Under the pieces are notes generated by a model. That model did no database searches. It was not told the DNA's origin and saw nothing but the letters and a program-made list of their open reading frames with translations. From assembly GCF_000768705.1 (NCBI RefSeq), contig NZ_AVPJ01000001.1:1-64000 (forward strand): a stretch of 64,000 nt of DNA. Reading direction: 5' to 3'. Every line of letters begins with the position of its first letter. Positions within the stretch are counted from its first letter, which is position 1. The position numbers and the translations under genes are program-made. This DNA comes from Knoellia sinensis KCTC 19936. GTDB lineage: Bacteria; Actinomycetota; Actinomycetes; Actinomycetales; Dermatophilaceae. Positions 38,813 through 54,290 of the stretch are shown here, piece by piece.

Positions 38813-40240
38813 ATGGAGTTGCAGGACTACCTGCGGACGCTGCGGAAAAGGTGGCGCATCATCGCAGCCACCATTCTTTTCACGCTGGCGGCGGCGGCGG
38901 CGTACACAATCCTCGCTCCGCGCTCCTATGAAGCGAAGACCGAGCTCTTCGTGTCCACCTCGTCAGGAGACTCCGTCCTCGACCTCGCGCAGGGCGGCAC
39001 GTTCTCGCAGCAGCGGGTGAAATCGTATGCAGACGTGCTCACGAGCCCAATCATCCTCGACCCAGTGATCCAGCAGCAGAGCCTGCAGCTGAACTCAGCG
39101 CAACTCGAGCGCAAGGTCACGACCACGGTCCCGTTGGACACGGTCCTGATCGAACTCGCGGTGCGCGACGAGGACCCAGTGAACGCCGCACGGATCGCTG
39201 AGGGGATCGCCAAGCAGTTCATCGATACGGTCGATGAGATCGAGAAGCCCGGCGCCTCCGCGGACAACCCCGTGGCAGTCACGATCCTTCGGCCGGCTGT
39301 GGCTCCCACCACACCTGTCAGCCCGTCCCCGGTTCGCAACCTTGCTTTGGCCCTCGTGCTCGGAACTCTTCTCGGATTGGGGTTGGCCCTCACGCGCGAA
39401 CTGCTTGACACGCGCGTGCGCAGCGAGCGAGATCTCGAAGGAGTTTCCGATCATCCCATTCTGGGTGGCGTCCACTACGACGAGCGAGCCGCTCGGGAAC
39501 CGCTCGTCGTGCAGGGCGACCCCCAGAGCCCGCGCGCGGAGGCATTCCGGGCCCTGCGCACCAACCTGCAGTTCGTCGATACCGAGCACAACCTGCAGGC
39601 CATCGTCCTCACGTCCTCTCTCCCAGGCGAGGGGAAGACGACGACGACGGCCAACCTGGGCCTCACCATGACCGAGGCTGGCTACACCGTCTGTTTGGTG
39701 GAGGCCGATCTGCGCCGACCCCGGCTCCTCGACTACATGGGCCTCGACGGCTCGGTCGGACTGACCAACGTGCTCATCGGGGAGGCCGAACTCGACGACG
39801 TCCTCCAGCCCTTCGGTGCGGGCTCGACGATGGTGCTCGGCGCAGGTCCGATTCCGCCCAACCCGAGCGAACTCCTCGGATCCAGCACGATGCGGGAGAT
39901 CCTGCGTCAGCTTCGAAGTCGCTTCGACTACGTCCTCCTCGATGCACCTCCGGTCCTCCCCGTCACAGATGCCGCGGTACTTGGTCGGGTCGCAGATGGG
40001 GTCATCGTGGTGGTCGGAGCAACGGTCGTGCGCAAGGAGCAGGTGGCTCGTGCCTTGGAGAACCTCCACAGAGTCAACGCACCAGTCCTTGGCTTTGTCG
40101 CCAACCGGCTCCCGACCAAGGGCGAGGCAACGTACGCCTACTACGGGGAGGGCCAGACCTCTCTTCCACCCGAGGAGCAGGAGCCTTCCCTGCGGCGCCG
40201 AGCTCAGTCGGCTAGGGCAGGGTCCTCTCGTCGGCGCTGA
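38813..40240 (+). CDS. Polysaccharide co-polymerase with BY-kinase domain (Wzz-Wzc type)
   Basis: A 475-residue membrane protein that controls polymer length and autophosphorylates on tyrosine. A Wzz domain lies between two membrane segments (about residues 15-34 and 176-194), followed by a cytoplasmic kinase. Walker A is SLPGEGKTTTTANLG (Lys275), Walker A' CLVEADLRRP (295-303) and Walker B YVLLDAPP (373-380). A Tyr cluster, TYAYYGEG at 440-447, near the C-terminus is the probable phosphorylation site. ATG 38813 has AAGAAGGGA upstream. Its 3' end overlaps the convergent phosphatase gene by 37 bp. It is a single-chain kinase as in proteobacteria and actinobacteria, not the split form of Firmicutes. 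Confidence 0.9.
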   Translation: MELQDYLRTLRKRWRIIAATILFTLAAAAAYTILAPRSYEAKTELFVSTSSGDSVLDLAQGGTFSQQRVKSYADVLTSPIILDPVIQQQSLQLNSAQLERKVTTTVPLDTVLIELAVRDEDPVNAARIAEGIAKQFIDTVDEIEKPGASADNPVAVTILRPAVAPTTPVSPSPVRNLALALVLGTLLGLGLALTRELLDTRVRSERDLEGVSDHPILGGVHYDERAAREPLVVQGDPQSPRAEAFRALRTNLQFVDTEHNLQAIVLTSSLPGEGKTTTTANLGLTMTEAGYTVCLVEADLRRPRLLDYMGLDGSVGLTNVLIGEAELDDVLQPFGAGSTMVLGAGPIPPNPSELLGSSTMREILRQLRSRFDYVLLDAPPVLPVTDAAVLGRVADGVIVVVGATVVRKEQVARALENLHRVNAPVLGFVANRLPTKGEATYAYYGEGQTSLPPEEQEPSLRRRAQSARAGSSRRR

Positions 40241-40830
40241 GGGTCAGCCCCGCCGGCTTGGCCCAGCGCTCGCCGCAGCGACGGCATCCACCGCTCGATT
40301 TGCGCCGCCATCGCTTGGAAGACTTCGGGCCCTCGTCGATACGGATCCACGATGTCCGCCTCGTCTGCCGCCATGGGAGGGTGGAGACCACGCCGCTGGG
40401 CCGCCAGCGACGCGATCTGGCCGAGCCATTCCCCTGGTTCCGTCACGGTGGGCATCTGGTCATCGGGAATGTGGTCCACGAGATCGGCGAAATCCGCTAC
40501 GGCAAAGGTGTAACGCATGGACCGCGGGTGCAAACGGGCGACCAACCCACGGTGAGCGCGCGTCGCCGTCAGCACGAGCTGGCTGTCGGCCACCATCGAC
40601 GTGGTGAGTTGGCGGGCCACGAAATCAGACGACGCGACCCCGAGCCGCTCAAGAAGACTGGCCGACAATGGGTCGATGGGAGCAGCAACCAACGCACCTG
40701 TCCCCGCAGAGGCGACGGACATGCCGTTCTGTCCCCAGATCGAGTCCAAGGAGTTCTGGAGTCGTCGTTCGAGGAACGGCGACCGACAGACGTTTCCAGT
40801 GCAAACGACAAGGATCCGGGCTGAACTCAC
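40204..40830 (-). CDS. Low-molecular-weight protein tyrosine phosphatase
   Basis: A 208-residue LMW-PTP, expected to dephosphorylate the neighbouring BY-kinase. The P-loop is VVCTGNVCRSPFLE (CX5R with the nucleophile Cys) and the general-acid Asp lies in DIVDPYRRGPE. The protein is longer than the usual 150-160 residues because of the C-terminal tail SLRRALGQAGGADPQRRRED and an inserted segment before it. GTG 40830 lies 7 nt after TAAGGT (40843-40838), which suggests a leaderless message. The gene faces the kinase gene and overlaps its 3' end. Confidence 0.88.
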   Translation of the reverse strand: MSSARILVVCTGNVCRSPFLERRLQNSLDSIWGQNGMSVASAGTGALVAAPIDPLSASLLERLGVASSDFVARQLTTSMVADSQLVLTATRAHRGLVARLHPRSMRYTFAVADFADLVDHIPDDQMPTVTEPGEWLGQIASLAAQRRGLHPPMAADEADIVDPYRRGPEVFQAMAAQIERWMPSLRRALGQAGGADPQRRREDPALAD

Positions 40831-40979
40831 AGCTCACACCTTAGGCCGAACCGTCCAGGCCACACTGACGAATGATTGCTCCGCCGCTCGCGCCGACCGA
40901 CCCTGGTCGTGGAGCTGGTTCAAGCGTGTCGGGCGATGAGCCAAGAGCTTCGCTCGACTGCGTGAGTTGCCAGTGCGAG

Positions 40980-42314
40980 TCAGTCACTCGTGCTGCCCCG
41001 CACCTCCAGCAGAATGATGCCGGCGATCCGGGTGTCTGTGGCACTGAGCCTGTCGACCGCCCTGCCCACGGCGTGCTTGGTTGACCGTCCCAGGGAAACG
41101 ACCAGAATCGCCGTCTTCGTGCGCCCCGCCACCAATGCTGCATCCGTGACCCCGGTCAGGGTCGGGGTGTCGACGAGTACCAGGTCGAATTCTCTGCCGA
41201 GCCGAGCCATGCCCACGACCATGGACTCAGAGGCCAGAAGCTCGCTGGGATTGGGTGGCACCGACCCAGCCCCTAGGACCGAGATCCGCGATCCCGGAAC
41301 GCGCTGAACTGCCTGCTCGAGCGAAATCTCGCCAATCAGGATCTCCGTCAAACCAGGGAAGGCGGAAAGTCCGTGGAATGCGTGCTGGCCGGGACTCCGT
41401 AGGTTCGCGTCAACGACGCACACCGTATTTCCGCCATCCGAGATGGTCTGGGCGAGGGCCCAAGTTGTCGCTGCACTGTCGCCCGGATGGCAGCCGGCTA
41501 TCGTCAGAATCCTCGTGGCGTGAACGGCTGTGACATAGCTGAGATTCGTGCGCGCCATGCCGAAAGCATCACGGCGAGCGCCTGAGAGCCGATCAGATCC
41601 GTTGCCTCGATGTCTCGGAATCCGCGCCAACACGGGTGCGTCGATGAGGGCGGACAGGTCAGCCTCTGAAGTCAGCGTTCGACTGAGTCGACGGCGCAGC
41701 CCCGCGAAGGTGACACCAGCGAGGGCTCCGGCCAGCGCACCGGCCACAGTGTTGACGGAGATATCGGGCGACACCTGCTCCCCGGGAGAGCGGGCATGTC
41801 CCAGAACACGCGCTGAAATAGGTGTGGGAGCCTCGAACCGAGGCCGTTCGATCTCGGCTGCCACGATGGCTGTCTGGCTGGCGATCGCACTGGCAATCTC
41901 GGCAGCCAAGGCGGGTTCTTGATTTCGTACCCGAACCGTGAGTACGACGCTGCCTACGTCAGCCTCTGCACTTGATGCGCGCCGCAACACATCGGGTCCT
42001 GCGTCCAGGCCAAGCTGCTCGATCACGCGAGTTAGCACCCTGTCGTTCGTGGCGATGGCGGCGTAGGACTTCACCCGCTCCTGGGCGAACGCCTGTGCAG
42101 TCACGAGCTGGGTCCCGTTCTCAACGCCACCTGCGACGGTCGTTTGGATGAACAGATCGCTGCGCGCCTCGTAGACCTTCGGCGAAAGCAAAGACCCTGC
42201 GACAGCGAGCAGGGCTCCGAGCACCGCACCGATGGCGGCGCTACGCCAACGGCGCCGAATGCCGTCGGCCACCCCTTTTGCAAGGTCGCCGGTGCGACCA
42301 CGCGGCTGCCTCAT
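40980..42314 (-). CDS. Wzz/BY-kinase-like protein with a destroyed P-loop (pseudokinase)
   Basis: A 444-residue paralogue of the kinase at 38813. The Wzz domain, two membrane segments (about residues 24-43 and 188-205) and the kinase fold are kept: GARRDAFGMARTNLSYV, the A'-like VVDANLRSP (300-308), GAGSVPPNPSELLAS and the B-like LVLVDTPTL. The Walker A segment, however, reads GCHPGDSAATTW, where the active copy has PGEGKTTTT. The invariant Lys is Ala281 and the second Gly is Ser. There is no C-terminal Tyr cluster. I infer no kinase activity. A role as a chain-length partner or regulator of the active copy is plausible. Confidence 0.85.
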   Translation of the reverse strand: MRQPRGRTGDLAKGVADGIRRRWRSAAIGAVLGALLAVAGSLLSPKVYEARSDLFIQTTVAGGVENGTQLVTAQAFAQERVKSYAAIATNDRVLTRVIEQLGLDAGPDVLRRASSAEADVGSVVLTVRVRNQEPALAAEIASAIASQTAIVAAEIERPRFEAPTPISARVLGHARSPGEQVSPDISVNTVAGALAGALAGVTFAGLRRRLSRTLTSEADLSALIDAPVLARIPRHRGNGSDRLSGARRDAFGMARTNLSYVTAVHATRILTIAGCHPGDSAATTWALAQTISDGGNTVCVVDANLRSPGQHAFHGLSAFPGLTEILIGEISLEQAVQRVPGSRISVLGAGSVPPNPSELLASESMVVGMARLGREFDLVLVDTPTLTGVTDAALVAGRTKTAILVVSLGRSTKHAVGRAVDRLSATDTRIAGIILLEVRGSTSD

Positions 42315-42413
42315 GCTTCTCCGTAGTCAAGTCGTGCCAGCGGGGCGTGGCCCTAATATTATGGGGGCACCCGACGGGTGGATCCACGTTCTCGAAGTGA
42401 AGGGCAACAAGCC

Positions 42414-43271
42414 GTGTGGCCTCGCCGTGCAGTGCTGCTCGCCTCCCTCACGGCGGCCGCCGGCTGCTCGGCGGAAGGAACAGACATCAGGCGAAGAGTC
42501 GACACCACACAGCTGACAGGACCTTCCCCCTCGCCGAGCGACGTTTCCTACCGTCCGGTGGCATCGACGGGATACGAGAACTTCGTCTACCGGGGGGAAC
42601 GAAAGTTCTACACCGAACTGACAGGCCGCGCAGAGATCCGGAATGCGGAAGCGTTCCTGGCACGCGATGCCTTCGTGATCGGCGGGGTCGGAGCACCCGA
42701 AAGCGGGGCGGCGCCGATCGAGCGCGCAGAGTTCTCTGCAGTGGATCGTGAAATTCATGGTCGGGACGTCTGGGCAGCGTTCGCCGTGAGAGTGATCGGC
42801 CCAAACCCCAGTGACTGGTGCTTGATCAATCAGTTCCACGACGTTCCGGACAAACAGGACGCCGTGGTGCCACCACCCTTCGGCGCGGAACTTGTCCCGG
42901 GCGGACGAGGATTTCGCATCATGGCGAGGGCTGCAGGTTCGCGCCACCACACCGCCGTGGACGTGGAACGGACGGTGTATGAGATCGACGAGTTCGAACG
43001 CGATCGGTGGCACCACTTCGTTTACCATCTCGTCTTCGAGCGAGCGAAGTCCGGTGTGATCCAGATCTGGCACAACGGCGTGTCCGTCGCCGACCTCGTT
43101 GTGCCGTTCGGCTACAACAACGAGGTCGGCCCGTACTTCAAGTACGGTGCCTACCGCGCTGCGACCAGCGGGGCGACTCACACCGAGTACGTCAACGTTG
43201 AACTCCGGAACGCTTCCCTATTGCCCCGCGTCGCCAATCCAAGATCCATCACCCCGAAGGTCGCCTGGTGA
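42414..43271 (+). CDS. Secreted lipoprotein, possible polysaccharide lyase (heparin-lyase-I-like)
   Basis: A 285-residue exported protein. From GTG 42414 it starts MWPRRAVLLASLTAAAGCSA, a short signal with an Arg pair and a lipobox-like AAGC. GAAGGG lies 9 nt upstream of this start; GTG 42378 gives 12 more residues but no ribosome-binding site. The rest is a beta-rich domain with DWCLINQFHDVPD, RWHHFVYHLVFERAKSG, IQIWHNGVSVADL and GPYFKYGAYRA. This pattern resembles the heparin-lyase-I-like polysaccharide-lyase family (PL13/PF14099), where Q-x-H and the W-x-G-x-x-x-Y-like strand are typical. I cannot confirm the family. Its place in the locus suggests it acts on the polymer made here. The stop overlaps the next start (GTGA). 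Confidence 0.55.
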   Translation: MWPRRAVLLASLTAAAGCSAEGTDIRRRVDTTQLTGPSPSPSDVSYRPVASTGYENFVYRGERKFYTELTGRAEIRNAEAFLARDAFVIGGVGAPESGAAPIERAEFSAVDREIHGRDVWAAFAVRVIGPNPSDWCLINQFHDVPDKQDAVVPPPFGAELVPGGRGFRIMARAAGSRHHTAVDVERTVYEIDEFERDRWHHFVYHLVFERAKSGVIQIWHNGVSVADLVVPFGYNNEVGPYFKYGAYRAATSGATHTEYVNVELRNASLLPRVANPRSITPKVAW

Positions 43272-43864
43272 AGGCCCGACTTCGGAAGGCACAGGTCCTC
43301 ATCAACCTGCTCCGGCTTTGGCCACATCTCCTCGTCGCGCAACAGCACCGACGGGCTTCCGCCGTGTGGGCCGATGTTGCACGATGGTGCGAGGAGCTCA
43401 CGCTCCAGATCACCGGAAACTATGCACTGGCATACCTCCTCACGGTCCACCCTGAGTTCAGAAACCTCTTCTACAGCCGCGTCGGCCCCATCGGACTGCT
43501 GCTGAACATGTGGTGTCGCCGAATGGCGACGCTGTACATCGCAACCCCGCCAGATCGGATCGGTCCAGGACTCTTCATCCAGCACGGCTTCGCGACGATC
43601 ATCGCCGCCGAGTCCATAGGAGCGAACTGCTGGATCAACCAGCAAGTGACGATCGGCTATTCGTCACGGACTGACTGCCCCGTGATCCAGGACAACGTCG
43701 TGATCGCTGCGGGCGCCAAGGTCATTGGCTCGGTGACCGTCGGTCACGACGCGGTGATTGGCGCCAATGCCGTTGTCGTCAAGGACGTCGACCCCGACTG
43801 CACCGTGGTCGGCGTCCCAGCACGGGTCGTCCGCCGGGGCAGAACCCGTGAGACCGGACGATAG
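43268..43864 (+). CDS. Hexapeptide-repeat acetyltransferase (SAT/LbH family)
   Basis: A 198-residue left-handed beta-helix acyltransferase. The hexapeptide region runs from about residue 95 (RIGPGLFIQHGFATIIAAES) through IGANCWINQQVTIGYSS to KVIGSVTVGHDAVIGANAVVVKDVDPDCTVVGVPAR, close to serine acetyltransferases. The catalytic His is in FIQHG. In a polysaccharide locus the likely acceptor is a sugar hydroxyl. The GTG start overlaps the lyase stop, so the two are coupled. Confidence 0.8.
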   Translation: MKARLRKAQVLINLLRLWPHLLVAQQHRRASAVWADVARWCEELTLQITGNYALAYLLTVHPEFRNLFYSRVGPIGLLLNMWCRRMATLYIATPPDRIGPGLFIQHGFATIIAAESIGANCWINQQVTIGYSSRTDCPVIQDNVVIAAGAKVIGSVTVGHDAVIGANAVVVKDVDPDCTVVGVPARVVRRGRTRETGR

Positions 43865-43904
43865 GCTGAGCCGCCGCAGTCCGCAGACAAGGAGCCCAAT
43901 CAGG

Positions 43905-45752
43905 ATGTGTGGAATCACAGGCGTCGCGAGGCTCGACCGCGCGCCGCTCGCACCGGGCATGGCTGATCACATGGCTGAGGCGCTCCACCACCGAGGCCCT
44001 GACGCCGCAGGGCAGTGGTCCAGCGGGTCGGTAGACCTGGCTCACCGACGGCTATCCATCATCGATTTGGATGGGTCGCAACAGCCGATGGTCGATAGGG
44101 ATGGAACTGTCTTGACGTACAACGGTGAGGTCTTCAACTACCGACAGCTCGCCGCAACCTTGGGGGGAACGTGGGGCAGCCAAGGCGATACGGAGGTTCT
44201 CCATCGGCTGGTGGTCGAGAGGGGCGTAGACGGCCTACGAGAGGTCCGGGGCCAGTTCGCCTTCTGCCACTACGACCCGCGCATCGGACGCTTGCTTCTC
44301 GCTCGTGACGCTATGGGAGTCCTGCCGCTCTTCTGGTGGACGGATGGGAACACATTCGCATTCGCCTCAGAGTTGCCGGCCCTCCTACGGGCCCTGCCCC
44401 AGCCTCCACAGATAGACGACACCGCGTTGTCGCAGTATCTGGCGTACCGCGCCGTTCCGGCACCGGCAACCCTGTGGCAGGGAGTTCACAAACTGCGGCC
44501 GGGGCACTACTTGGAAGTCACCCTGAAAGGTTCCATCACAGAGCGCCCCTGGACCGCTTCGGAACCCCATGTGATAGATGACCTCACCGCCGAGGAGGCC
44601 CTTGACCGTCTGGACCAAGTTCTGGTTGAGGCAGTCGAACTGGCATTGGTGGCGGATGTCCCGGTTGGCGCCTACCTCTCTGGTGGCGTCGACTCCAGTC
44701 TCATCTGCGCGCTCGCATCCCGCGCCCGGCAAGGTATCCCCCTGCACACCTACTGCGCCACCTTCGACGGCGCGACCGTTGACGAGGGGGGTTTCGCCCG
44801 GACGGTCGCCGATTTCTTGGGCAGTGACCACGTTGAGGTGCCCGTCAGCGCGGAAGGCTTTGTCGAGGAGTGGGACAGCCTGACAAGGTTCAGGGGCGCG
44901 CCCCTCTCCGAGCCGAACGAGATCGCCGTTCACAGGCTGGCAGAACGCGCATCCTTGGATGTCAAGGTCGTGCTATCCGGGGAGGGCAGCGACGAACTGT
45001 TTGCCGGCTATCCCAAGCACCGGTTCGCGACGGCCACGAGGCGGGCGGGGATCGTGCCGGCATGGCTACGTGGGCCCGTCCTCAAGCAGATCGAGCAACG
45101 GCTTCCCTCTGACCAGCGGCGTCTTGGCGTCGCTCTCCGTGCTCTTTCCGAGGCCGACGAATCCTCCCGGCTCCGTGGATGGTTTGCGTCATTCGACCGT
45201 CAGGAACGTGAGGCCCTGATGCGCGGTCCAATCGGTGAGCCGCCTATCGCGGGGTTGCGTGCGCACTCCCCACTGCGTGCAATGCTCCGACACGACCAAG
45301 GTGCGTGGCTCGCCGACAACTTGTTGGAGAGAGGAGACCGCATGACCATGAGCGCCTCGGTCGAGTTGCGTCCCCCGTTCCTTGATCCTGAAGTTGTGCG
45401 TCTCGCAAGATCGATTCCCGACAAGGTCCTGCTGCGGGGCGGAACCTCCAAGTGGCTCGTCAAGGAAGTGGCACGCCGCTACCTTCCTCCAGCTATCGTC
45501 GACCGTCGGAAAGCGGGGTTCCCCGTGCCCCTCGAAACGTGGTTTCGGGGCGGCCTGCGCGACATGGCGCACGACCTGATACTCGGGCCCAACTCGTTCT
45601 GTTCGGCACACTTGGACCAGACGGCCGTGCGAGGAGTCCTCCACCGTCACTCAGCCGGAAAGTCGGACGAGTCCGTCCGCATATGGACCCTGTTGTCGCT
45701 CGAAGTGTGGGCTCGACAGTTCCGGGCCGTACAGACCGAGGACCGGCGATGA
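43905..45752 (+). CDS. Asparagine synthase-family amidotransferase (AsnB type)
   Basis: A 615-residue glutamine-dependent amidotransferase. The N-terminal glutaminase domain starts MCGITGVARLD with nucleophile Cys2 and contains LAHRRLSIIDLDGSQQPM and TYNGEVFNYRQL. The C-terminal ATP-pyrophosphatase domain has AYLSGGVDSSLICALA (PP-loop) and VVLSGEGSDELFAGY. Members in polysaccharide loci amidate uronic-acid carboxyls instead of making free asparagine, and WecC in this locus makes a uronic acid, so I infer the same here; asparagine synthesis is the alternative. ATG 43905 has AAGGAG at 43890-43895. The stop overlaps the next start (ATGA). Confidence 0.85.
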   Translation: MCGITGVARLDRAPLAPGMADHMAEALHHRGPDAAGQWSSGSVDLAHRRLSIIDLDGSQQPMVDRDGTVLTYNGEVFNYRQLAATLGGTWGSQGDTEVLHRLVVERGVDGLREVRGQFAFCHYDPRIGRLLLARDAMGVLPLFWWTDGNTFAFASELPALLRALPQPPQIDDTALSQYLAYRAVPAPATLWQGVHKLRPGHYLEVTLKGSITERPWTASEPHVIDDLTAEEALDRLDQVLVEAVELALVADVPVGAYLSGGVDSSLICALASRARQGIPLHTYCATFDGATVDEGGFARTVADFLGSDHVEVPVSAEGFVEEWDSLTRFRGAPLSEPNEIAVHRLAERASLDVKVVLSGEGSDELFAGYPKHRFATATRRAGIVPAWLRGPVLKQIEQRLPSDQRRLGVALRALSEADESSRLRGWFASFDRQEREALMRGPIGEPPIAGLRAHSPLRAMLRHDQGAWLADNLLERGDRMTMSASVELRPPFLDPEVVRLARSIPDKVLLRGGTSKWLVKEVARRYLPPAIVDRRKAGFPVPLETWFRGGLRDMAHDLILGPNSFCSAHLDQTAVRGVLHRHSAGKSDESVRIWTLLSLEVWARQFRAVQTEDRR

Positions 45753-46510
45753 CATCACGTCGCGGTGCATACGAATTCAGTCGGGTGGGGACAGTCGGCG
45801 CTCATCGCCTGACGATGGAGCAGACACTTGAGGCTGTTCAGGAGCTCGTGGCATCGCCTGGTGTATCCCAGCACGTCGTGATCAACGCAGCCAAAGTTGC
45901 TGAAGCCGAGCGGAATTCGGCTCTTCGCGACGCGATTCTGTCTTGTGATCTCATCAACGCGGACGGTATGTCGGTTGTCTGGGCCAGCCGGTTGCTGGGC
46001 ACACCCCTGCCTGAGCGCGTCACGGGTATCGATCTCATGACCGCGCTGTTCGAGCGGGCCGAAACACAAGGGTGGCCCGTCTACCTGCTCGGGGCAGAGG
46101 ACGCTGTGATTCATGAAGTCGTGGATCGCCTACGGGTGCGATATCCCGAGCTTCCGATCGCTGGCTTCCGCAACGGGTACTGGTCGCCTGACCAGGAGCC
46201 TGAGGTGGTGTCCGCCGTGGCTTTGGCCGACGCCAAGCTCCTGTTCGTAGCCATGCCTAGCCCACGAAAGGAGCTTTTCGTGGCTCGCCACCGGCAAGAC
46301 CTGAACGTGGGTCTGGTTGTAGGTGTGGGCGGCTCGTTCGACGTGCTCGCAGGAGTCACCAAGCGAGCTCCCGACGTCCTGCAACGCGCCGGGCTCGAGT
46401 GGCTGTTCCGGCTGGTCCAGGAACCGCGGCGCATGTGGAAGAGATACCTCGTCGGCAACACGAAGTTCATCGGAATCGTGGCTCGCCAACGACTGAGTTC
46501 TCGACGATGA
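45749..46510 (+). CDS. WecG/TagA/CpsF-family glycosyltransferase (GT26)
   Basis: A 253-residue GT26 enzyme, a family that adds ManNAc (TagA) or ManNAcA (WecG) to lipid-linked GlcNAc. LINADGMSVVWASRLLG holds the conserved Asp, and TGIDLMTALFERAETQGWPVYLLG, LLFVAMPSPRKELFV, VVGVGGSFDVLAGVTKRAP and LEWLFRLVQEPRRMWKRY follow. No transmembrane helix is seen. A donor made by WecB and WecC is encoded nearby, so ManNAcA transfer is the likely activity. The start overlaps the AsnB stop (ATGA). Confidence 0.9.
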   Translation: MTSRRGAYEFSRVGTVGAHRLTMEQTLEAVQELVASPGVSQHVVINAAKVAEAERNSALRDAILSCDLINADGMSVVWASRLLGTPLPERVTGIDLMTALFERAETQGWPVYLLGAEDAVIHEVVDRLRVRYPELPIAGFRNGYWSPDQEPEVVSAVALADAKLLFVAMPSPRKELFVARHRQDLNVGLVVGVGGSFDVLAGVTKRAPDVLQRAGLEWLFRLVQEPRRMWKRYLVGNTKFIGIVARQRLSSRR

Positions 46511-46559: not shown

Positions 46560-47996
46560 ATGTCGCGACTAGGCGCGCCGGGGATCACCGCATCGACTCT
46601 GGGTAATTACCTCGCCGTGGGGGGACAAGGCCTCAGGACCCTGATTCTCGCCAGGATGCTCGGCCCAGCATCCTTCGGGTTGCTCAACATCGCGAATCTG
46701 GGCGCCAACCTCACCGTATTTGCCGACGTCGGTACGGGCGTTCTGGCTGAGCAACGTGCGAGCGAGGCCCGCGGGAGGGGTGACATGGCCCGTGCGGAGC
46801 GAGAGTTGGTGGCGGGAGCAGGCGCGCGAATGGCATGCGCCCTAGCAGTGCTTCTCGCGTGCACGGTCGGTGCGATTGCCTTGGTAACGGCTGGTCAGAC
46901 CACAGCAGCCGCGGTGATGGGGTTCATCGCGCTCTCGGCACCGCTCCAAGGTCTCTGGATGACGGCTCGGGGCTGGCTTCGAGTCCATGGTCGCTTTGTC
47001 CTTGCGTCGTGGTGCCAAGCGAGTCAGGTCGTCGTGTGGTTGTCAGTCGTGCCCCTCGCGGCACTCCGATGGGGCCTCCCGGGGGCATTGCTCTCGATGG
47101 CGGTGAGCTATCTCCCCCCGCTCATCGTGGCGAGTCGCGGCTGTCCCGTCCACCTTCTCGTGAGACCACGGTTCGACGCGTTCAGACGACTCGTCCGTCC
47201 AGCTTCCGCGATATGGGCCGTTCTCACAGTGAACTTCGCCTTCGTCAATATTGAACAGGTTCTGGCGTGGCAGCTCCTGGACGCCACTGCCATGGGCATC
47301 TTGGCCATTGCACTCCTCACCTCGACAGCACTCATGGCTCTTCCAGACGGTGCTGCCGCGGCGAGTCACCCCGTGACTCTGGAGTCCTTTGCGAAGGAAG
47401 GGGTCCTTCCCCCTCGGTTGCCGAGTGTCATGAGGGTCATGCACGTCGTGCAGCTCTCGCTTGGGGTGCTGGTGCCCTTCTCTTGGCTGATCATGGGCAT
47501 CGTCGTCGTCGTCTTCCTCGACCAGTACGTCAGGGCGCTTCCCGCCATCGCGCTGCTGGGCGCCGCGACCTGCTTTGTGGCCATGCCCTTGGCCAGCAAC
47601 GCATCGCTCCTGGCCGTCGGTCTGCACCGCCGAGTTCCGTGGCTCATGTTGAGTGCCGGCATGGTGAAGGTCGTCGCCGCTGTCATCCTCGTACGCAGAG
47701 ATCCCTCCGTCACAAGCATTGCCGTCGCGGGCGTGCTGGGCAGCATGGTCTATGCTGCGGGGTACCTTCGCCTCGTGGCACGGGCATTCCGGCTCGGCGC
47801 GCGAGCGTCCGGGGCTTTCCTCGTGGAGTATCTCGCGGGACCGTTCGTCGTCCTTGCCCTTGCCGTTTTCGTCGTGATCGCCTCTCCTGGAGGACAGTAC
47901 GAAGGCTACTGGCAGGTGACGGGCGTTGCGTCGGCCGTTGCCGTAGTTGCTCTGGGCGCTTACTACAGGTTCTTACGGCGGAGGCGGCGCATCTGA
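46560..47996 (+). CDS. Polysaccharide flippase-like membrane protein (Wzx/MOP family)
   Basis: A 478-residue integral membrane protein with about 12-14 hydrophobic segments. The first segment, ITASTLGNYLAVGGQGLRTL followed by LARMLGPASFGLLNIANLG, is the usual N-terminal pattern of Wzx-type oligosaccharide flippases (ALGPxxFG-like). It should move lipid-linked repeat units across the membrane. ATG 46560 is the first start. Its 3' end overlaps the convergent glycosyltransferase gene by 34 bp. Confidence 0.82.
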   Translation: MSRLGAPGITASTLGNYLAVGGQGLRTLILARMLGPASFGLLNIANLGANLTVFADVGTGVLAEQRASEARGRGDMARAERELVAGAGARMACALAVLLACTVGAIALVTAGQTTAAAVMGFIALSAPLQGLWMTARGWLRVHGRFVLASWCQASQVVVWLSVVPLAALRWGLPGALLSMAVSYLPPLIVASRGCPVHLLVRPRFDAFRRLVRPASAIWAVLTVNFAFVNIEQVLAWQLLDATAMGILAIALLTSTALMALPDGAAAASHPVTLESFAKEGVLPPRLPSVMRVMHVVQLSLGVLVPFSWLIMGIVVVVFLDQYVRALPAIALLGAATCFVAMPLASNASLLAVGLHRRVPWLMLSAGMVKVVAAVILVRRDPSVTSIAVAGVLGSMVYAAGYLRLVARAFRLGARASGAFLVEYLAGPFVVLALAVFVVIASPGGQYEGYWQVTGVASAVAVVALGAYYRFLRRRRRI

Positions 47997-49057
47997 GGGC
48001 GGGTCGTCGTGAGGGTGGCGTAGTGCGCGCCGAGTTCACGAACATAGTGTCGAATCGACCGGGGCTCAACAGCCGCGAGGTTGATCTGACCAATCTGATC
48101 ACGCAGATCAGGGTCAGCGATCAGCGAGGCCAAGGCACTCGTCAGGGTCTCGGGTGCGCCACGCTCAACGAGAACGTTCCCATCAAGTCCCGCAAGGGTT
48201 TCGGGAATCGACCCCACAGAGGTCGCGACAACCGGAAGCCCTCGAGACATGGCCTCCAGCATCGAGAGCGGCTCGGCCTCCGCCCGTGAGTTCAGGGCGA
48301 ACACATCGGCCGAGTCGTATGCCGCTGCCAGATCCGCACCTCTCTTGACACCCAGCACGTCCACGATCGGGCTGGTTTCCAAAGCCCGCCGCTCCTTCGT
48401 CCCGATCTCGCCCCATGGCCCCACGAGTCGGAGCCGAACGGAGTTTCCTCGCGTGTTGAGGGTCTCGATGGCCTGAAAAAGTTCGTACTGCCCCTTGTGT
48501 GCTGAGATCTCTCCGACACACAACACAGTGGCGACCTGCCGGCGCACACGGGGCCGGGGCCGAGGTGCACCGGGAAACCCTTGAACGGGGTTGGGGAGGA
48601 TGATGATCCTCTTCTCTGCCTCCGGGAAGGCGGACAGTATCTCGTCGCGTGCCCGGCCGGACATGACCAGGAGGCACTGGGATTCCCGCACAATTCTCGC
48701 GAGGGCAGGGTGCCCCAGATGCTGCGGGAGGGAACTGTGCAGGTGACTGAGAACCGGCACTCTCAGCAGCCGTGCGGTGCTCAGATACGCCGCATCGCGA
48801 ACAAGTCCGTTGTCCGTCACCTGGAGATGGACGAGATCCGGCCGCCGGAGGAACAGCTCGGCGGCAAAACGAACCAGCGCGAACGCATGAACTCCCAGTC
48901 GCCCCAGCAACGACGATGAACGGCGACCCAAGGGCCACCACTGGTCGAACAGCCGTGTACGCGGCATGGCGTCAACCAACTCGGCCGTGTGCGTGGCTAC
49001 TCCACCGACTGCGGAACCGGGCGGCCCAGCGACGAGGACGCGCGGGTCGCGCGTCAT
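47963..49057 (-). CDS. Glycosyltransferase, GT4 type
   Basis: A 364-residue GT-B enzyme. The N-terminal acceptor lobe has VAGPPGSAVGGVATHTAELV (glycine-rich loop). The C-terminal donor lobe has LCVGEISAHKGQYELFQAIE and the retaining-GT E-x7-E motif in AEAEPLSMLEAMSRGLPVVA. It probably adds one sugar to the repeat unit; donor and acceptor are unknown. ATG 49057 overlaps the wecC stop (ATGA), so it is the second gene of a leftward pair. Confidence 0.87.
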   Translation of the reverse strand: MTRDPRVLVAGPPGSAVGGVATHTAELVDAMPRTRLFDQWWPLGRRSSSLLGRLGVHAFALVRFAAELFLRRPDLVHLQVTDNGLVRDAAYLSTARLLRVPVLSHLHSSLPQHLGHPALARIVRESQCLLVMSGRARDEILSAFPEAEKRIIILPNPVQGFPGAPRPRPRVRRQVATVLCVGEISAHKGQYELFQAIETLNTRGNSVRLRLVGPWGEIGTKERRALETSPIVDVLGVKRGADLAAAYDSADVFALNSRAEAEPLSMLEAMSRGLPVVATSVGSIPETLAGLDGNVLVERGAPETLTSALASLIADPDLRDQIGQINLAAVEPRSIRHYVRELGAHYATLTTTRPQMRRLRRKNL

Positions 49058-50295
49058 CGCCAGAGGCCGCGGGTGTCGATGACGGGTCGATTCCCAAGAG
49101 CCGAAGCGGGGATCGACCTGAAGGAAGTGTGGTCAACGAGGAGGACCACGACGTCGGCACGCTCGAGAGCGCTCTCGGCCGAACTGAGTTCGACGTTCTC
49201 GAGAGCGGCCAAGTCGTCAGGCAACTCCTCGACGTGCGGCTCGACGGCGAGAACCTGGAGACCCTCAACTTGAGCCAGAGACTTGACCACTTGACGGGCT
49301 GGGCTCTCACGTAGGTCATCGATGTCGGCTTTGAACGCCAAACCGAGACAGGCCACGACGGGTGCCGCCAGACCGGAGGTTGCGTCGATGACGTTCTGCA
49401 CGACCGCCATCGGCCGATCGTCGTTGATCGAACGCGCGGTCTGAATCAGTTTGGACTGGTCTGGCGCCGCAGCCACGATAAACCACGGGTCCACGGCAAT
49501 GCAGTGTCCGCCGACACCTGGACCAGGACTGAGAATGTTCACACGAGGGTGGCGATTGGCGTGGGAGATGACTTCCCAGACGTTCAGATCGAGCACCCCA
49601 CAAACGTTCGCCAGTTCGTTGGCAAAAGCGATATTGACGTCGCGGAATGCGTTCTCAGTCAGTTTCACCATCTCAGCAGTGGTGGCATCCGTGAGGACGA
49701 TCTCACCCTTGCAGAAGACTCGATAGAGTTCCGCCGCAGCCTCGGCACACGATGGAGTCAGTCCACCGACGACCCGATCATTCGCGACGATCTCGATCAT
49801 GATTCGCCCAGGGAGGACCCGTTCGGGGCAGTGGGCGAGATGAACGTCAGGAGTGTCGGACTGGTGGGGGAAGGTGAGATCCGGTCGTAGTTCCGACAGC
49901 CACTCGCTGATGCGTCGAGTGGTGCCCGGTGGCGAGGTGGACTCCAAGATGACAACCTCACCCCCGCGGAGCCGCGGTGCGATGCTGTGCGTGGCAGCCT
50001 CGACGAATGACAGGTCCGGCTTGTGCCCGTCAGCGAACGGTGTGGGTACGGCAAGGAGGAACACGTCGGCTTCCGGCACCTCGGTGCTGGCCCTCAAAAA
50101 GCCCGAGGCAACGGCCCCCTCAACGGCTTGATCCAAGTCGGGTTCGACGATCGGCGCTTCGCCCCGATTGATCGCATCGACCGTTCTGGGATTCACGTCC
50201 ACACCCACGACGCCGATGCGATGCGCTGCGATTGCAGCACATGTCGGGAGGCCGATGTAGCCCAAACCGATGACCGCAATCCCCTGCTCGTACAC
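49054..50295 (-). CDS. wecC: UDP-N-acetyl-D-mannosamine dehydrogenase
   Basis: Oxidises UDP-ManNAc to UDP-ManNAcA in two NAD-dependent steps. The 413-residue protein of the UDP-glucose/GDP-mannose dehydrogenase family starts with a Rossmann motif, GIAVIGLGYIGLPTCAAIAA. LTENAFRDVNIAFANELANV is the central helix, and the catalytic Cys is in GPGVGGHCIAVDPWF. CLGLAFKADIDDLRESPARQ is typical of the ManNAc type. GTG 50295 with GGGAG 5 nt upstream is preferred over upstream codons. The match to WecC rather than other nucleotide-sugar dehydrogenases is strengthened by the divergent wecB. Confidence 0.9.
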   Translation of the reverse strand: MYEQGIAVIGLGYIGLPTCAAIAAHRIGVVGVDVNPRTVDAINRGEAPIVEPDLDQAVEGAVASGFLRASTEVPEADVFLLAVPTPFADGHKPDLSFVEAATHSIAPRLRGGEVVILESTSPPGTTRRISEWLSELRPDLTFPHQSDTPDVHLAHCPERVLPGRIMIEIVANDRVVGGLTPSCAEAAAELYRVFCKGEIVLTDATTAEMVKLTENAFRDVNIAFANELANVCGVLDLNVWEVISHANRHPRVNILSPGPGVGGHCIAVDPWFIVAAAPDQSKLIQTARSINDDRPMAVVQNVIDATSGLAAPVVACLGLAFKADIDDLRESPARQVVKSLAQVEGLQVLAVEPHVEELPDDLAALENVELSSAESALERADVVVLLVDHTSFRSIPASALGNRPVIDTRGLWR

Positions 50296-50331
50296 GCGTG
50301 CTCCCGTAAGGTGCCCTTGATCGACTGGCAC

Positions 50332-50447: not shown

Positions 50448-51596
50448 ATGCCGCGGGTCATGATCATCTACGGGACACGGCCCGAGGCCATCAAGATGGC
50501 GCCAATCGTGACCCTGATGCGTGAGTCCGATCGTTTTGAGCCGGTCGTAGCCGTCACTGGGCAACACAGGGAGATGCTCGACCAAGTCAACGGGATCTTC
50601 GGAATCTCACCCGACCACGACCTCAACCTGATGCGTGCGGGTGCGACAGTTTCGGAGCTCACTGCATCCACCCTTACTGCGACGTCGGCGCTCCTTGCGA
50701 GCGTCACTGTCGACGCAGTAGTTGTTCAGGGCGACACGACGAGTGCGTTCGCTGCCGCACTCGCCGCCTTTTACGCGAACAAGCCTGTCGTGCATCTGGA
50801 GGCGGGCCTTCGCACGGGCAATCTCAGGTCACCGTTCCCGGAGGAGAAGAACCGACGCCTTATCGCACCCCTCTCCGCGCTGAATCTGGCTCCCACTGTT
50901 TCGGCGAAGTCCAACCTCTTGGCCGAAGGCATCCCGGAGCAACACGTTGTGGTGACGGGGAATACGGTCATCGATGCGATGCGTACCGTCGCTCTTCAGG
51001 AAGTGACATACAACGACCCCCGGGTCGACGCTGCCTTTGCCTCGGATCGGCGGGTCGTGCTCGTGACAACGCACCGACGCGAATCCTGGGGGGCTCGCAT
51101 GCGGGAGGCCATGTCTGCCCTCGCCGAGGTGGCCAAGCGGGCTCCCGATGTAATCGTTGTCCTACCCATGCACCGAAATCAGGTTGTGAGGGACGTTGTC
51201 ACCGCCGAGTTGGGCTCGCTCGAGAACGTGATCCTCACGGAGCCCTTGTCATACAACGAGTTCGTACACGCCCTCGCCGGGTGCTACCTCGTGATTACGG
51301 ACAGTGGGGGCGTCCAGGAGGAAGCTCCAAGCCTGGGCAAGCCCGTCCTCGTCATGCGCGACACGACCGAGCGGCCCGAGGCGGTCGAGGCAGGTACCGT
51401 CCGGCTGGTGGGTACCTCTGGGACCCAGATCGTCCGCGAGTCGATGGAACTTCTGGAGCAACCGGACGCTTACGCGGCCATGTCGAAAGCAGTCAACCCG
51501 TACGGAGACGGCAACGCCGCGACCCGATCACTGGCCGCGATCGGCGAACTCTTCGGCCTGAGTCACCGGCTCCCCGATTTCGCCCCGCCAGAGTGA
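50448..51596 (+). CDS. wecB: UDP-N-acetylglucosamine 2-epimerase (non-hydrolysing)
   Basis: Converts UDP-GlcNAc to UDP-ManNAc, the substrate of WecC. The 382-residue GT-B-fold enzyme has IYGTRPEAIKMAPIVTL, VQGDTTSAFAAALAAF, HLEAGLRTGNLRSPFPEE, VTTHRRESWG and TDSGGVQEEAPSLGKPV then RDTTERPEA, all diagnostic. AAGGGAG precedes ATG 50448. Divergent from wecC; its 3' end overlaps a convergent glycosyltransferase gene by 34 bp. Confidence 0.95.
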   Translation: MPRVMIIYGTRPEAIKMAPIVTLMRESDRFEPVVAVTGQHREMLDQVNGIFGISPDHDLNLMRAGATVSELTASTLTATSALLASVTVDAVVVQGDTTSAFAAALAAFYANKPVVHLEAGLRTGNLRSPFPEEKNRRLIAPLSALNLAPTVSAKSNLLAEGIPEQHVVVTGNTVIDAMRTVALQEVTYNDPRVDAAFASDRRVVLVTTHRRESWGARMREAMSALAEVAKRAPDVIVVLPMHRNQVVRDVVTAELGSLENVILTEPLSYNEFVHALAGCYLVITDSGGVQEEAPSLGKPVLVMRDTTERPEAVEAGTVRLVGTSGTQIVRESMELLEQPDAYAAMSKAVNPYGDGNAATRSLAAIGELFGLSHRLPDFAPPE

Positions 51597-52717
51597 GTGG
51601 ATCGACGAACGCGCCCCTCGGCCCACGCCCGCACAGCCCTTCCGTAGACCTCGACGTGCTGGTCCGCTATTCGTGTCCAGTTGAAGGTTGTCGCCGACAG
51701 ACGTCTCGCGCCGTCCTCAAACTTGGGCGTTCGATCTTGTACCAGGACCTCGGCAAGGGTGCGAGCGAGCAGGTCCGGCCGTTCCGGCGGCACCAGCAAC
51801 CCGTTGTCGCCGTGGCGGACAACCTCGGACAGGCTTCCCACATCCGTGGCGACAACGGCGCGGGCGCGTCCGATCGCCATCAAACTGACCCCGCTCTGGG
51901 TCGCGTCGCGGTAGGGCTGAACGATGACCTGAGCACGATCGAACACGTTGATGACCTCGCGGCGCGACAGGTAATGGTTGATGACCTCGAAGCGAGGGTT
52001 GCGCATCACACGTTCGCGTACAGGGTCCAGGGCTGGCCCTCGTCCGGCGATGATCGCGGTGACGTTCTGCGAGGTGTCGATCGTCTCCACCGCGGCGACA
52101 AAGTCCTCCAACCCCTTGTAGGCCTCGAGCCGACCGAAAAAGAGGAGCGTTCCCATTTCCTGAGCTGCGCGTTGCGTGTCGGCTGGCAGGGCTCCGAGCA
52201 CACCGTGGGCAACCGGTGAGACGCGCCCCCTGAGCCGTGGCGTGTCCTTGACCAAGTCCTTTACGAGTTGCGAGCCGTGAACGATCGCCCAGTCGCACCG
52301 GCGTCGATGCAGCCGAACATAGATCCCGTGGCGTTGCAGATGGTGAGCTCGGAAGTCAGTACCCGTGTGTGGCTTTGGATCGTGAACCGTGAGCACGAAG
52401 GGGTGACGTCGCAGACGCAGCATGGCCAGGAAGAACGCATCGCGCATGACCTCCTGTGCGTGAAGGACGTCAGGTCGGAAGTCCTCGACCAGCCGGACGA
52501 GTTCGCGGGCATTGTTCAAAACCGCGCGCGGTGAGGGCGCATGCTCGATGAAGCGGACCGATAGTCGCTCCGGAAGGTCGGCGAGGTACTCATCGCCGAG
52601 TTCGTCTCTGAAGTTCTGCTTCTCCAGCACCAAGAGCACATCGTGGTCTCGGGCGAGTTCGAGACTCAGGGCGAACGCGTACTCTGCGAAGTGCAGCGCC
52701 ACGTGCGCAATGCGCAT
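51563..52717 (-). CDS. Glycosyltransferase, GT4 type
   Basis: A 384-residue GT-B glycosyltransferase starting MRIAHVALHFAEYAFALSLE. Features are LHAQEVMRDAFF, FVLTVHDPKPHTG, the donor-lobe LLFFGRLEAYKGLEDFVAAV, VIVQPYRDATQSGVSLMAIG with the family E-x7-E region reduced to YRDATQSG, and LLVPPERPDLLARTLAEVL. The QSG variant resembles GT4 enzymes of O-antigen clusters. The gene is monocistronic on the minus strand and overlaps wecB at its 3' end. Confidence 0.85.
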   Translation of the reverse strand: MRIAHVALHFAEYAFALSLELARDHDVLLVLEKQNFRDELGDEYLADLPERLSVRFIEHAPSPRAVLNNARELVRLVEDFRPDVLHAQEVMRDAFFLAMLRLRRHPFVLTVHDPKPHTGTDFRAHHLQRHGIYVRLHRRRCDWAIVHGSQLVKDLVKDTPRLRGRVSPVAHGVLGALPADTQRAAQEMGTLLFFGRLEAYKGLEDFVAAVETIDTSQNVTAIIAGRGPALDPVRERVMRNPRFEVINHYLSRREVINVFDRAQVIVQPYRDATQSGVSLMAIGRARAVVATDVGSLSEVVRHGDNGLLVPPERPDLLARTLAEVLVQDRTPKFEDGARRLSATTFNWTRIADQHVEVYGRAVRAWAEGRVRRSTHSGGAKSGSR

Positions 52718-52770
52718 TCGTCCTCCAGGATCCGAGACGGCGCCCCCGAGGCTCTAGTCTGGGAGGCGAT

Positions 52771-54174
52771 GTGCGTTTTGAGAGACTACTTGACCTACCC
52801 CTCGCCCCGGGTGTGACCAGCATGTCCGCCGAACCGCCGTCCCCTCATCGAGAATCGACGTCGAGCCTGACCCTCGCCGGAGATACCTGGGGCGGGTGGA
52901 CGATCGTGATGCTCACGGCTAGCGCCTTCGCCTATGCAGTCATCGGCAAGGTGATCGACGGCAACATTCAAGTTCCCGACCAAGTGGGCCGCTTGCACGT
53001 CATGGCCGGCGGTGCGACCGCCACGTTGGTCAGCCTCGGGCTCATCGCTGCTGCCATCCTTTGCGCGGGCTTCGGCATCGTGCAAGGCCTTCGGATTGGG
53101 CGCTCACCATCCTTTTTCTCCGTCGCGATGCTCCTGCTCATCGTGTGGTGGTTCGTGGGGCTCGTCCTGCTCCGACCAGTCCAGCTCTCGCTCGATCAAG
53201 CGGTGCTCGCGGGTGCCGCAGTCGTCATGGTTGTTGGGGTCATCATGTCCCCACCCGTCGATCGGACGTTGGTCATTCTCAATGTCATCCGCGACGCGAT
53301 GGTGGCGGGTTCTCTGGCATTCAGCCTTCTTCGCCCAGCTCAGGGGCAGCTTCCGTGCCGCGAGGACAAGTGCGGTGTGTTCGGGGGGATGTACACCGGC
53401 TTCTACTTCCACGAGAACGTCGCCGCGTCGGGCGTCCTGCTGCTCATGCCAGCATTGTTGGTGGCCCGGTCCCGGCTCTACGTTCTTGCGGCAATTGCGG
53501 GCTTGGGCACCCTCGTCCTCGCCACGGGCAGCCGCACCGGGATCCTGACGTTCGTCCTGGGGGTCTTCGTCGTCATCTACGGTCAGTGGCGAATGGAGGA
53601 CGACGAGGGCGAGCTGGTCAACCCGTGGCCCCGCTGGCCGCTACCGGTCCGAGCCCTGCCGTTGCTCGCGTTCGCCGGATCGTCCTACCTCTTCCTGTCG
53701 GCGGCCGACGACGAACTGACTGGCCGCGGCGTGGTGTACTCCGGCATTCGTGACGCGATGACGGGGGCGGAGCTCATCTTCGGCGGTGGCACCGACGTCG
53801 TCGAGCGCATCTCTGGTGGCTGGGTCATGGGCGAACACGGTCAGGCTCCTCACCTCCTGGTGCATGCAGGCATCGTCGGCATGCTGGTCTTCACCTTTGC
53901 CATGGTGGCCTCGATGCTGATGAAGCACCCGACGCGCAGTCAGTTCATGGGTTTGGGCTTCCTCATCGTGGCGTCCTCGCAGTTCGTGACCGAGCCAGGC
54001 TGGGAGCTAGCGGTACGGTCGGTCGACTTCGTCAGCATCCTGATCACGACAGGTCTCATGGCAACGGGCGCTGTGGTCGCCGTTGGAAAGATCCCCAGTC
54101 GGCTGGGCAACGCCAGGGACTCGTCAGTGGCGGTGGCGAACCCACATCCTCGAGCAAGACGGGTGAGCCAGTGA
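52771..54174 (+). CDS. Wzy/O-antigen-ligase-like polymerase
   Basis: A 467-residue membrane protein with about 10-12 hydrophobic segments and a large periplasmic-side loop. The ATGSRTGILTFVLGVFVVI stretch resembles the O-antigen polymerase/ligase signature (Wzy_C), and YSGIRDAMTGAELIFGGG with MGEHGQAPHLLVHAGIVG, a His-containing loop, fits the same family. It probably joins flipped repeat units. GTG 52771 has GGGAGG 4 nt upstream; an ATG 17 codons later is an alternative. A hairpin terminator follows at 54252-54284. Confidence 0.75.
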   Translation: MRFERLLDLPLAPGVTSMSAEPPSPHRESTSSLTLAGDTWGGWTIVMLTASAFAYAVIGKVIDGNIQVPDQVGRLHVMAGGATATLVSLGLIAAAILCAGFGIVQGLRIGRSPSFFSVAMLLLIVWWFVGLVLLRPVQLSLDQAVLAGAAVVMVVGVIMSPPVDRTLVILNVIRDAMVAGSLAFSLLRPAQGQLPCREDKCGVFGGMYTGFYFHENVAASGVLLLMPALLVARSRLYVLAAIAGLGTLVLATGSRTGILTFVLGVFVVIYGQWRMEDDEGELVNPWPRWPLPVRALPLLAFAGSSYLFLSAADDELTGRGVVYSGIRDAMTGAELIFGGGTDVVERISGGWVMGEHGQAPHLLVHAGIVGMLVFTFAMVASMLMKHPTRSQFMGLGFLIVASSQFVTEPGWELAVRSVDFVSILITTGLMATGAVVAVGKIPSRLGNARDSSVAVANPHPRARRVSQ

Positions 54175-54284: not shown

Positions 54285-54290
54285 CCCGCC

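Follow-up and report, generated by a model that had tools for sequence, protein, structure and literature searches.

A predicted accessory polysaccharide locus with AsnB, a PF14099 lyase-like lipoprotein and a kinase-dead Wzc, flanked by rnpB and the gene for an RNB exonuclease in Knoellia sinensis

Which polymer would Knoellia sinensis KCTC 19936 make from the 13 genes that lie between rnpB and a gene for an RNB-domain exonuclease (rnb), and how did these genes come to be there? They occupy positions 38,813–54,174 of the window, that is, the whole stretch of 64,000 nucleotides analysed (contig NZ_AVPJ01000001.1, positions 1 to 64,000, forward strand). The original prediction, made from the letters alone, had given the same span and gene content, and all 13 genes are present as described, every reading frame being open. 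Gene families were assigned with Pfam and NCBIfam profiles and their cut-offs, and rnpB with RF00010. By these profiles the block, hereafter the island, is probably an accessory Wzx/Wzy-dependent exopolysaccharide or capsule locus, a kind of system already known. More fully, we read it, with a probability of about 0.68, as an acquired Wzx/Wzy locus for a polymer containing N-acetylmannosaminuronic acid (ManNAcA), which would be amidated, acetylated and trimmed by a lyase, and which would be initiated by a phosphoglycosyltransferase (PGT) acting in trans.

The sugar supply follows from two genes. The wecC gene (49,054–50,331, minus strand) encodes a UDP-ManNAc dehydrogenase that matches UDPG_MGDP_dh, scores 602.1 over the NF008286 equivalog cut-off of 459 and contains a GPGVGGHCIAVDP block. 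The wecB gene (50,448–51,596, plus strand) encodes a non-hydrolysing UDP-GlcNAc 2-epimerase (Epimerase_2; TIGR00236, 439.2 over 210.15). Because both enzymes pass equivalog cut-offs, it is a safe prediction that WecB and WecC make UDP-ManNAcA, as originally claimed. The island encodes three glycosyltransferases: a GT26 enzyme of the WecG/TagA/CpsF, VpsK type (45,749–46,510, plus strand; Glyco_tran_WecG PF03808, 208.6 bits; TIGR00696, 162.3 over 69) and two GT4 enzymes, GT4a (47,963–49,057, minus strand; PF00534, 83.9 bits) and GT4b (51,563–52,717, minus strand; PF13692, 77.5 bits).

The assembly genes are those of a Wzx/Wzy system. The wzcA gene (38,813–40,240, plus strand) encodes a co-polymerase (Wzz, PF02706) fused to an intact bacterial tyrosine kinase (BY-kinase) of the Wzc/VpsO type. 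It has a P-loop, scores 170 over 108.05 on TIGR01007, and presents the Walker A motif GEGKTTT, the A' motif EADLRRP, the B motif LLDAPP and three tyrosines in the last 40 residues. The gene for a low-molecular-weight tyrosine phosphatase of the Wzb/VpsU type (40,204–40,830, minus strand; PF01451 (LMWPc), 69.8 bits) shares 37 bp with wzcA at their 3' ends. The Wzx-like flippase (46,560–47,996, plus strand) has eight membrane segments in a simple scan and no relevant Pfam match itself; a 48% identical homologue in G210, a genome of another genus in the same family, passes Polysacc_synt_3 (PF13440, 25.4 over 23). The Wzy-like polymerase (52,771–54,174, plus strand) has eight membrane segments by simple hydropathy scan and is 32% identical to the matching G210 protein. 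The Wzx homologue, the Wzc co-polymerase and the phosphatase thus support the Wzx/Wzy-type assembly that had been proposed. Strand order alternates along the island, with three tail-to-tail overlaps of 34–37 bp (wzcA/phosphatase, wzx/gt4a and wecB/gt4b), and the genes for the lyase, acetyltransferase, AsnB, GT26 and Wzx are closely spaced on the plus strand.

Three of these closely spaced genes could modify the polymer. The first (42,378–43,271, plus strand) encodes a lyase-like lipoprotein whose membership of PF14099 (59.8 bits over 29.9) agrees with its first description. It has a twin arginine and a lipobox-like signal, AAAGC, which we take to be the lipobox. The alignments place in it the motifs R-A-E, Q-F-H and K-Y-G-A-Y; R-x-E, Q-x-H and K-x-G-x-Y are presumably catalytic, by our reading of related lyase families. 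R-x-E and Q-x-H are common to the window lyase and four relatives, and K-x-G-x-Y is kept in four of these five, one Sulfitobacter protein having Q-x-G-x-Y. In overlapping samples that each include its own genome, the lyase found matches in 2 of 39, 2 of 347 and 3 of 396 genomes; in these and the other large genome searches scoring was limited to 3 to 6 candidates per genome, so misses are soft. The other matches (G014, G215, G469 and G633) are partial, at 23.9 bits or less. The island lyase is rare. The second gene (43,268–43,864, plus strand) encodes a hexapeptide, serine-acetyltransferase-like O-acetyltransferase (Hexapep) of the VpsC/EpsC type, scoring under the cut-offs of both NF041874 EpsC (106.3 bits; cut-off 150) and TIGR01172 (91.3; cut-off 210.65). 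The third (43,905–45,752, plus strand) encodes an AsnB-type glutamine amidotransferase with GATase and Asn_synthase domains and an SGGVDS motif. Its start is the ATG at 43,905, and translation from 43,908 begins with cysteine, so that the cysteine directly follows the initiator methionine.

The island contains a second Wzc-like gene, wzcB (40,980–42,314, minus strand; TIGR01007, 109.4 over 108.05), in which the kinase domain appears dead. Its Wzz match, at 21.6 bits, is below the Pfam cut-off of 25.5. The Walker A motif reads GDSAATT, with the lysine lost, and the A' motif DANLRSP, whereas GK(S/T) is kept in all 29 relatives examined. The last 40 residues contain no tyrosine, which is weak evidence by itself because 5 of the 29 relatives, with intact Walker A, also have none (2 of 29 have one). 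The highest wzcB identity among the matches listed, from 396 genomes, is 37%. By its motifs wzcB is a real pseudokinase, as had been claimed. BY pseudokinases have been described in systems of this sort, some standing alone and others, as the EcpK paper states, fused (PMC12004946). As described there, EcpK and HfsB resemble wzcB in having a BY-kinase fold with neither Walker motifs nor tail tyrosines and in partnering a co-polymerase; EcpK, however, stands alone and serves a polysaccharide co-polymerase that has no kinase, whereas wzcB includes a Wzz part of its own and is encoded next to an active Wzc.

Pairs of active and inactive BY-kinases are described elsewhere. In Staphylococcus aureus the active CapB2 coexists with the kinase-dead CapB1, encoded at different loci, and in Bacillus subtilis PtkA is named as active and PtkB as inactive (PMC3795738). 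The S. aureus capsule resembles the island in that the host is Gram-positive and has a UDP-ManNAc dehydrogenase, CapO, besides the active/dead kinase pair; unlike the island, it has CapA and CapB as separate proteins, and CapB1 keeps its active-site residues (PMC3795738). Because CapB2 phosphorylates CapO, it is a fair guess, by analogy, that wzcA acts on WecC. The cited text gives no agreed role for kinase-dead partners of active BY-kinases (PMC3795738). A limited literature search found no active and sequence-dead fused Wzc in one locus, and such a pair in one locus would make the function of BY pseudokinases simple to study.

The island looks acquired, because its site is empty in congeners and its GC content at third codon positions (GC3) is well under that of its neighbours. 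The genus sample comprised nine genomes, K. sinensis and eight congeners. The island is missing at the rnpB–rnb site in all eight congeners, as expected of what had been called an accessory locus, and its proteins find no match in the ~20 kb around the site in any of them (E 1e-6). In seven, rnpB and rnb are 36–115 bp apart; in the eighth, G007, the gap is 991 bp with a dehydrogenase-like gene in between. Mean GC3 is 0.736 over the 13 island genes and 0.849 (standard deviation 0.032, minimum 0.788) over 40 flanking genes, and only wzcA (0.788) and wzy (0.793) reach the flanking minimum. A gain in this species is simpler than loss in all other congeners. No boundary repeats of at least 8 bp were found between 38,641–38,812 and 54,151–54,300, and no integrase or transposase family is above the Pfam cut-off among the 13 genes. 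The G007 dehydrogenase-like gene, about 1 kb long (L028, 16,900–17,890), fills the same gap, so the rnpB–rnb gap took insertions more than once.

On contig C55 the same genome has a second capsule-type locus, equipped with a Wzc, a phosphatase and a transferase of its own. The C55 transferase has a 70–75% match in seven of the eight congeners and the C55 Wzc a 75–82% match in five; within the stretches taken from G002, no C55 locus was seen. The possibility that the island is a relocated core capsule locus was rejected, as the C55 locus is still present and the identity between wzcA and the Wzc of C55 is only 53%. Since the C55 transferase occurs in 7/8 congeners, the island polymer would be an additional one. 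The island at rnpB would thus be a case of one species gaining a surface polymer beside a capsule-type locus common to most congeners.

Which enzyme would initiate the repeat? The original prediction saw no initiating transferase in the window and suggested that one be sought elsewhere. The window indeed contains no PF02397 gene, and three are present elsewhere in the genome, at 361 kb and 502 kb of contig C1 and at 245 kb of C55. WecA was not found as an alternative initiator; the only PF00953 match is MraY-like and lies beside murF- and murD-like genes (by eye). The orphan sugar transferase gene at C1:360,138–361,598 (L020) lies between murI-like and pncB-like genes (by eye). It has 61% identical orthologues in G001, at the same site, and in G002, where a Wzc-like gene and further polysaccharide genes lie next to it (L053, L054), a 43% relative in G005, and no full-length match in the remaining congeners. 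The transferase near the related G210 locus is closer to the orphan (44%, 326 bits) than to either of the remaining K. sinensis enzymes (135 and 125 bits), which by sequence makes the orphan the best candidate initiator. The C1:502 kb transferase is unlikely to be a dedicated partner of the island: this full-length PF02397 gene (C1:501,570–503,033; L022) lies beside the atp operon (by eye) and is present in 9/9 genus members. In mycobacteria, that atp-side place is held by wecA. The C1:502 kb transferase likely serves a core glycan, previously unstudied.

The three PGTs available in trans also bear on whether the island makes anything at all. A decaying locus, with wzcB as a degenerate copy and the initiating transferase lost, would account for the lost wzcB kinase motifs and for the lack of a PGT in the island. 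We consider this very unlikely, given the PGTs elsewhere, the 13 open frames and the kept motifs of WecC, AsnB, wzcA and the lyase.

Related loci point to how the island was put together. The closest is in G210, where a homologous locus matches wzcA (65%), the phosphatase (53%), wecB (62%), gt4a (42%), wzx (48%), gt26 (45%), the acetyltransferase (51%) and wzy (32%). A PGT gene lies nearby, additional genes look OafA-like and GT2-like (by eye), and within the 38 kb taken there is no match to wecC, asnB, the lyase or wzcB. We infer, as a likely history, that a G210-type ManNAc locus acquired these four genes to become the island. The suggested search for the gene order in relatives recovered a partial homologous locus in G210 and not the full set. 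With GT26 (E 1e-30), 29 of 396 genomes had a match, K. sinensis included; among 10 loci compared from 9 of the 29, G210 alone has a locus like the island. In G330 the GT26 gene (51%) adjoins wecC (62%), with wecB (55%) nearby. With WecC (E 1e-80), 11 of 58 genomes had a match, and 9 of the 10 others were compared: wecB is present in 6/9 within the 25–40 kb taken, and no other island genes were seen in these nine loci except Wzc and phosphatase homologues in G749. With AsnB (E 1e-90), 4 of 335 genomes had a match, K. sinensis included, and the stretches from the other three have no further island matches.

Much of the set also occurs on plasmids. From 20 listed of 86 plasmid records matched by GT26, we picked 12 loci with flanks of 12–20 kb; wecB is near in 11/12 and wecC in 8/12. 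AsnB and Wzx found no plasmid match at the limits set. On pPs24235_1 of Paraburkholderia sabiae, which carries nearly the whole set, the order is PGT, OPX, low-molecular-weight tyrosine phosphatase, Wzc, wecB, wecC, Wzx, a hypothetical gene, GT4, a PF14099 lyase, a second hypothetical gene, GT26 and a hexapeptide acetyltransferase. Burkholderia arboris MEC_B345 shows this order for most of the set: phosphatase, Wzc, wecB, wecC, GT4, PF14099 lyase, GT26. Both differ from the island in having one Wzc and no AsnB match; P. sabiae has its own OPX and PGT and no pseudokinase, and the OPX/PGT likeness of B. arboris to it was judged by eye only. Their lyases are far diverged from the island lyase, although that of B. 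arboris keeps all three motifs. A plasmid of Streptomyces HUAS 15-9 has wecB, GT26, wecC, an oxidoreductase gene and asnB, its AsnB being 30% identical to the island's. A VPS-like locus of Pseudoalteromonas matches wecB (51%), wecC (58%), the acetyltransferase (36%) and gt26 (44%). The combination had been presented as unrecognised. That claim is weakened, as P. sabiae, B. arboris, Streptomyces HUAS 15-9 and the VPS system hold much of the set, but the island's exact mix of parts was not met elsewhere, the odd points being AsnB together with a PF14099 lyase and the kinase-dead second Wzc.

PF14099 genes are present on four named plasmid or chromid records, from Sulfitobacter S223, B. arboris, B. 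stagnalis (assigned only by similarity to B. arboris and a purpose-built model) and P. sabiae. A UDP-sugar dehydrogenase gene is near in 4/4 and is of the WecC type (>50% identical) in 3/4; B. stagnalis has only a 30% dehydrogenase and no wecB or GT26 match. Two of the four records were reached through GT26 and so are not independent of the GT26 search. The Sulfitobacter sp. S223 plasmid (L148), a polysaccharide plasmid, has a pair of PF14099-like genes: one encodes a protein of 1,365 residues annotated as heparin lyase I family, and the other is close to wecC.

How would the island work? A PF02397 transferase encoded elsewhere would start the repeat on undecaprenyl phosphate, and GT26 and the two GT4 enzymes would extend it by three sugars, ManNAcA among them. 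The predicted unit is a tetrasaccharide, because one PGT, one GT26 and two GT4 enzymes would each contribute a sugar. AsnB would turn the uronic acid carboxyl into an amide, and the hexapeptide enzyme would add an O-acetyl group. Wzx would flip the unit and Wzy would polymerise it under the control of wzcA, whose kinase the phosphatase would reset; kinase-dead wzcB would join as a scaffold or chain-length partner. Outside, the membrane-anchored PF14099 protein would cut the polymer by beta-elimination at the uronic acid, amidated or not, and thereby set its length or release it. The island thus hints that amidation of the uronic acid and cutting by the lyase are linked, which experiments could test. 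Both might even be joined with the control of chain length in a single circuit, in which the neutral C6 carbonyl of the AsnB-made ManNAc-uronamide lets the PF14099 protein beta-eliminate there, so that cuts fall at amidated residues, while a mixed wzcA/wzcB ring sets chain length; this extension is speculative and decidedly improbable.

The studied system that would work most like the island, by analogy and by shared families, is the Vibrio polysaccharide (VPS) with its lyase RbmB, although the two products may differ. VPS genes also include WecB, GT26, GT4 enzymes, Wzx/Wzy, a Wzc kinase and a low-molecular-weight phosphatase. The VPS-type set of WecB/WecC, a serine-acetyltransferase-like enzyme, GT26, Wzc and the phosphatase is all present in the island, which may thus represent a VPS-like set (WecB/WecC/GT26/acetyltransferase/lyase) brought into a high-GC bacterium. 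The shared UDP-sugar dehydrogenase and serine-acetyltransferase-like families are described in PMC3901696. In Vibrio cholerae the repeat has four sugars, and its N-acetyl-L-gulosaminuronic acid (L-GulNAcA) is amide-linked to glycine and partly O-acetylated (PMC3901696); RbmB cuts at this residue (PMC11637428). The island differs in its AsnB, PF14099 lyase and pseudokinase and in having neither export porin nor PGT, and VPS differs in its Gram-negative host, the glycine on its amide and the predicted pectin-lyase-like beta-helix of RbmB.

The VPS comparison raises the question of whether the finished polymer would hold L-GulNAcA, the C5 epimer, instead of ManNAcA. The VPS authors propose C5 inversion from ManNAcA, connect vpsB with a family of UDP-sugar dehydrogenases and liken vpsC/vpsG to serine acetyltransferases (PMC3901696), and the Pseudoalteromonas VPS-like locus matches four island genes (wecB, wecC, acetyltransferase and gt26). 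However, Pfam and NCBIfam reveal no C5-epimerase in the island, and we regard L-GulNAcA as unlikely. The Micrococcus luteus teichuronic acid, [ManNAcA-Glc]n on peptidoglycan (PMC3005890), raises another possibility: a wall-anchored polymer of this type, not a released exopolysaccharide, with the lyase as a wall-turnover enzyme. WecB, WecC and GT26 fit a ManNAcA product, and M. luteus, like K. sinensis, is a high-GC Gram-positive with a ManNAcA polymer (in the island, a predicted one). The M. luteus repeat is, however, a disaccharide (PMC3005890), whereas the three transferases together with Wzc, the phosphatase and the Wzy-like protein predict a unit above two sugars, and no LytR-CpsA-Psr ligase is present among the 13 genes (Pfam; the gene for such a ligase may be located elsewhere, and the rest of the genome was not searched). 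A teichuronic acid is therefore improbable, to about the same degree as L-GulNAcA.

Several observations weigh against an amidated, lyase-trimmed ManNAcA polymer of the Wzx/Wzy type. No PF02397 transferase is present in the window, and the orphan orthologues are in G001 and G002, both without the rnpB island. The Wzy-like protein scores 18.6 on Wzy_C, below the 31.7 cut-off (E 0.0017). GT26 is below the WecG, TarA and EpsA equivalog cut-offs, so its donor and acceptor are not fixed (ManNAcA or ManNAc); it may use UDP-ManNAc, because no wecC was found in G210 and in 4/12 plasmid GT26 loci. In those 12 loci, a PF14099-like gene is present in only two and AsnB in one. Lyase activity and a uronate-polymer substrate are only predicted: the P. 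sabiae lyase is without the Q-x-H motif, a direct phmmer search of the window lyase against the P. sabiae and B. arboris lyases gave nothing at E 10, nor did a search for a PDB relative at that limit, and a single-sequence AlphaFold model is unusable (mean predicted local distance difference test score, 33.4). Finally, AsnB scores above the cut-off of TIGR01536, the asparagine synthase equivalog (394.5 over 267.1), which leaves gene context as the sole basis for the amide.

It is possible, although we think it rather unlikely, that AsnB makes asparagine or amidates something else and that the uronic acid stays a free acid. The TIGR01536 score would fit, as would the lack of an AsnB match in the loci of P. 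sabiae and B. arboris, which resemble the island in other respects. The gene context instead suggests a role in the polymer: asnB and gt26 share 4 bp within the operon, and related asnB genes occur together with UDP-sugar dehydrogenase-like genes in Nocardia concava, in G005 and on the Streptomyces plasmid. The N. concava relative (52%), the closest from a named organism, is the one confirmed among 28 pattern matches of a named scan, and its locus also has an acetyltransferase gene and a heparinase II/III-family gene. In congener G005, a 32% AsnB accompanies a UDP-sugar dehydrogenase-like gene and heparinase II/III, and this is a second uronate, AsnB and lyase combination in the genus. With the island, the triad of uronate dehydrogenase, AsnB and lyase family amounts to three cases with two lyase families, which is not a statistic. 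In Tannerella forsythia, a wecB-wecC-asnB cluster accompanies a glycan with ManNAcA and its amide; unlike in the island, the glycan belongs to protein O-glycosylation with no polymer, and the authors assign AsnB to another residue (PMC6120980). A literature search for the amide, ManNAcAN, gave no papers. From the neighbouring genes, then, amidation of the uronic acid by AsnB is what we infer. The G005 stretch (L055, C1:832,000–851,900 of that genome) encodes a PGT, UDP-sugar dehydrogenase, GT4, AsnB, a Zn-dehydrogenase/Gfo fusion and heparinase II/III.

The B. cenocepacia Bep cluster (Bcam1330-1341) was considered as closest relative and rejected, as no WecB/WecC was found (the cluster paper mentions neither 'WecB' nor 'UDP-N-acetyl'; PMC3584217) and the product differs. 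The biofilm polymer of B. cenocepacia H111 is Gal-Glc-Gal-Man, unlike the island's predicted product (PMC7084887).

Elsewhere in the K. sinensis genome, another glycan-type region (L065, C1:232,000–251,900) encodes a WbpM-like protein of 600 residues and a UDP-sugar dehydrogenase, with glycosyltransferase-like and ABC transporter-like genes (by eye). Outside the island, the left flank is rnpB (38,279–38,658, minus strand; RF00010, 303 bits) and the right flank is the RNB-domain exonuclease gene (54,291–55,739, minus strand; PF00773, 152 bits). The latter has an alternative, longer start at 56,009, which would run antisense to a gene at 55,738–56,535; the coding model favours the start at 55,739. 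The N-terminal part is a separate match in four congeners.

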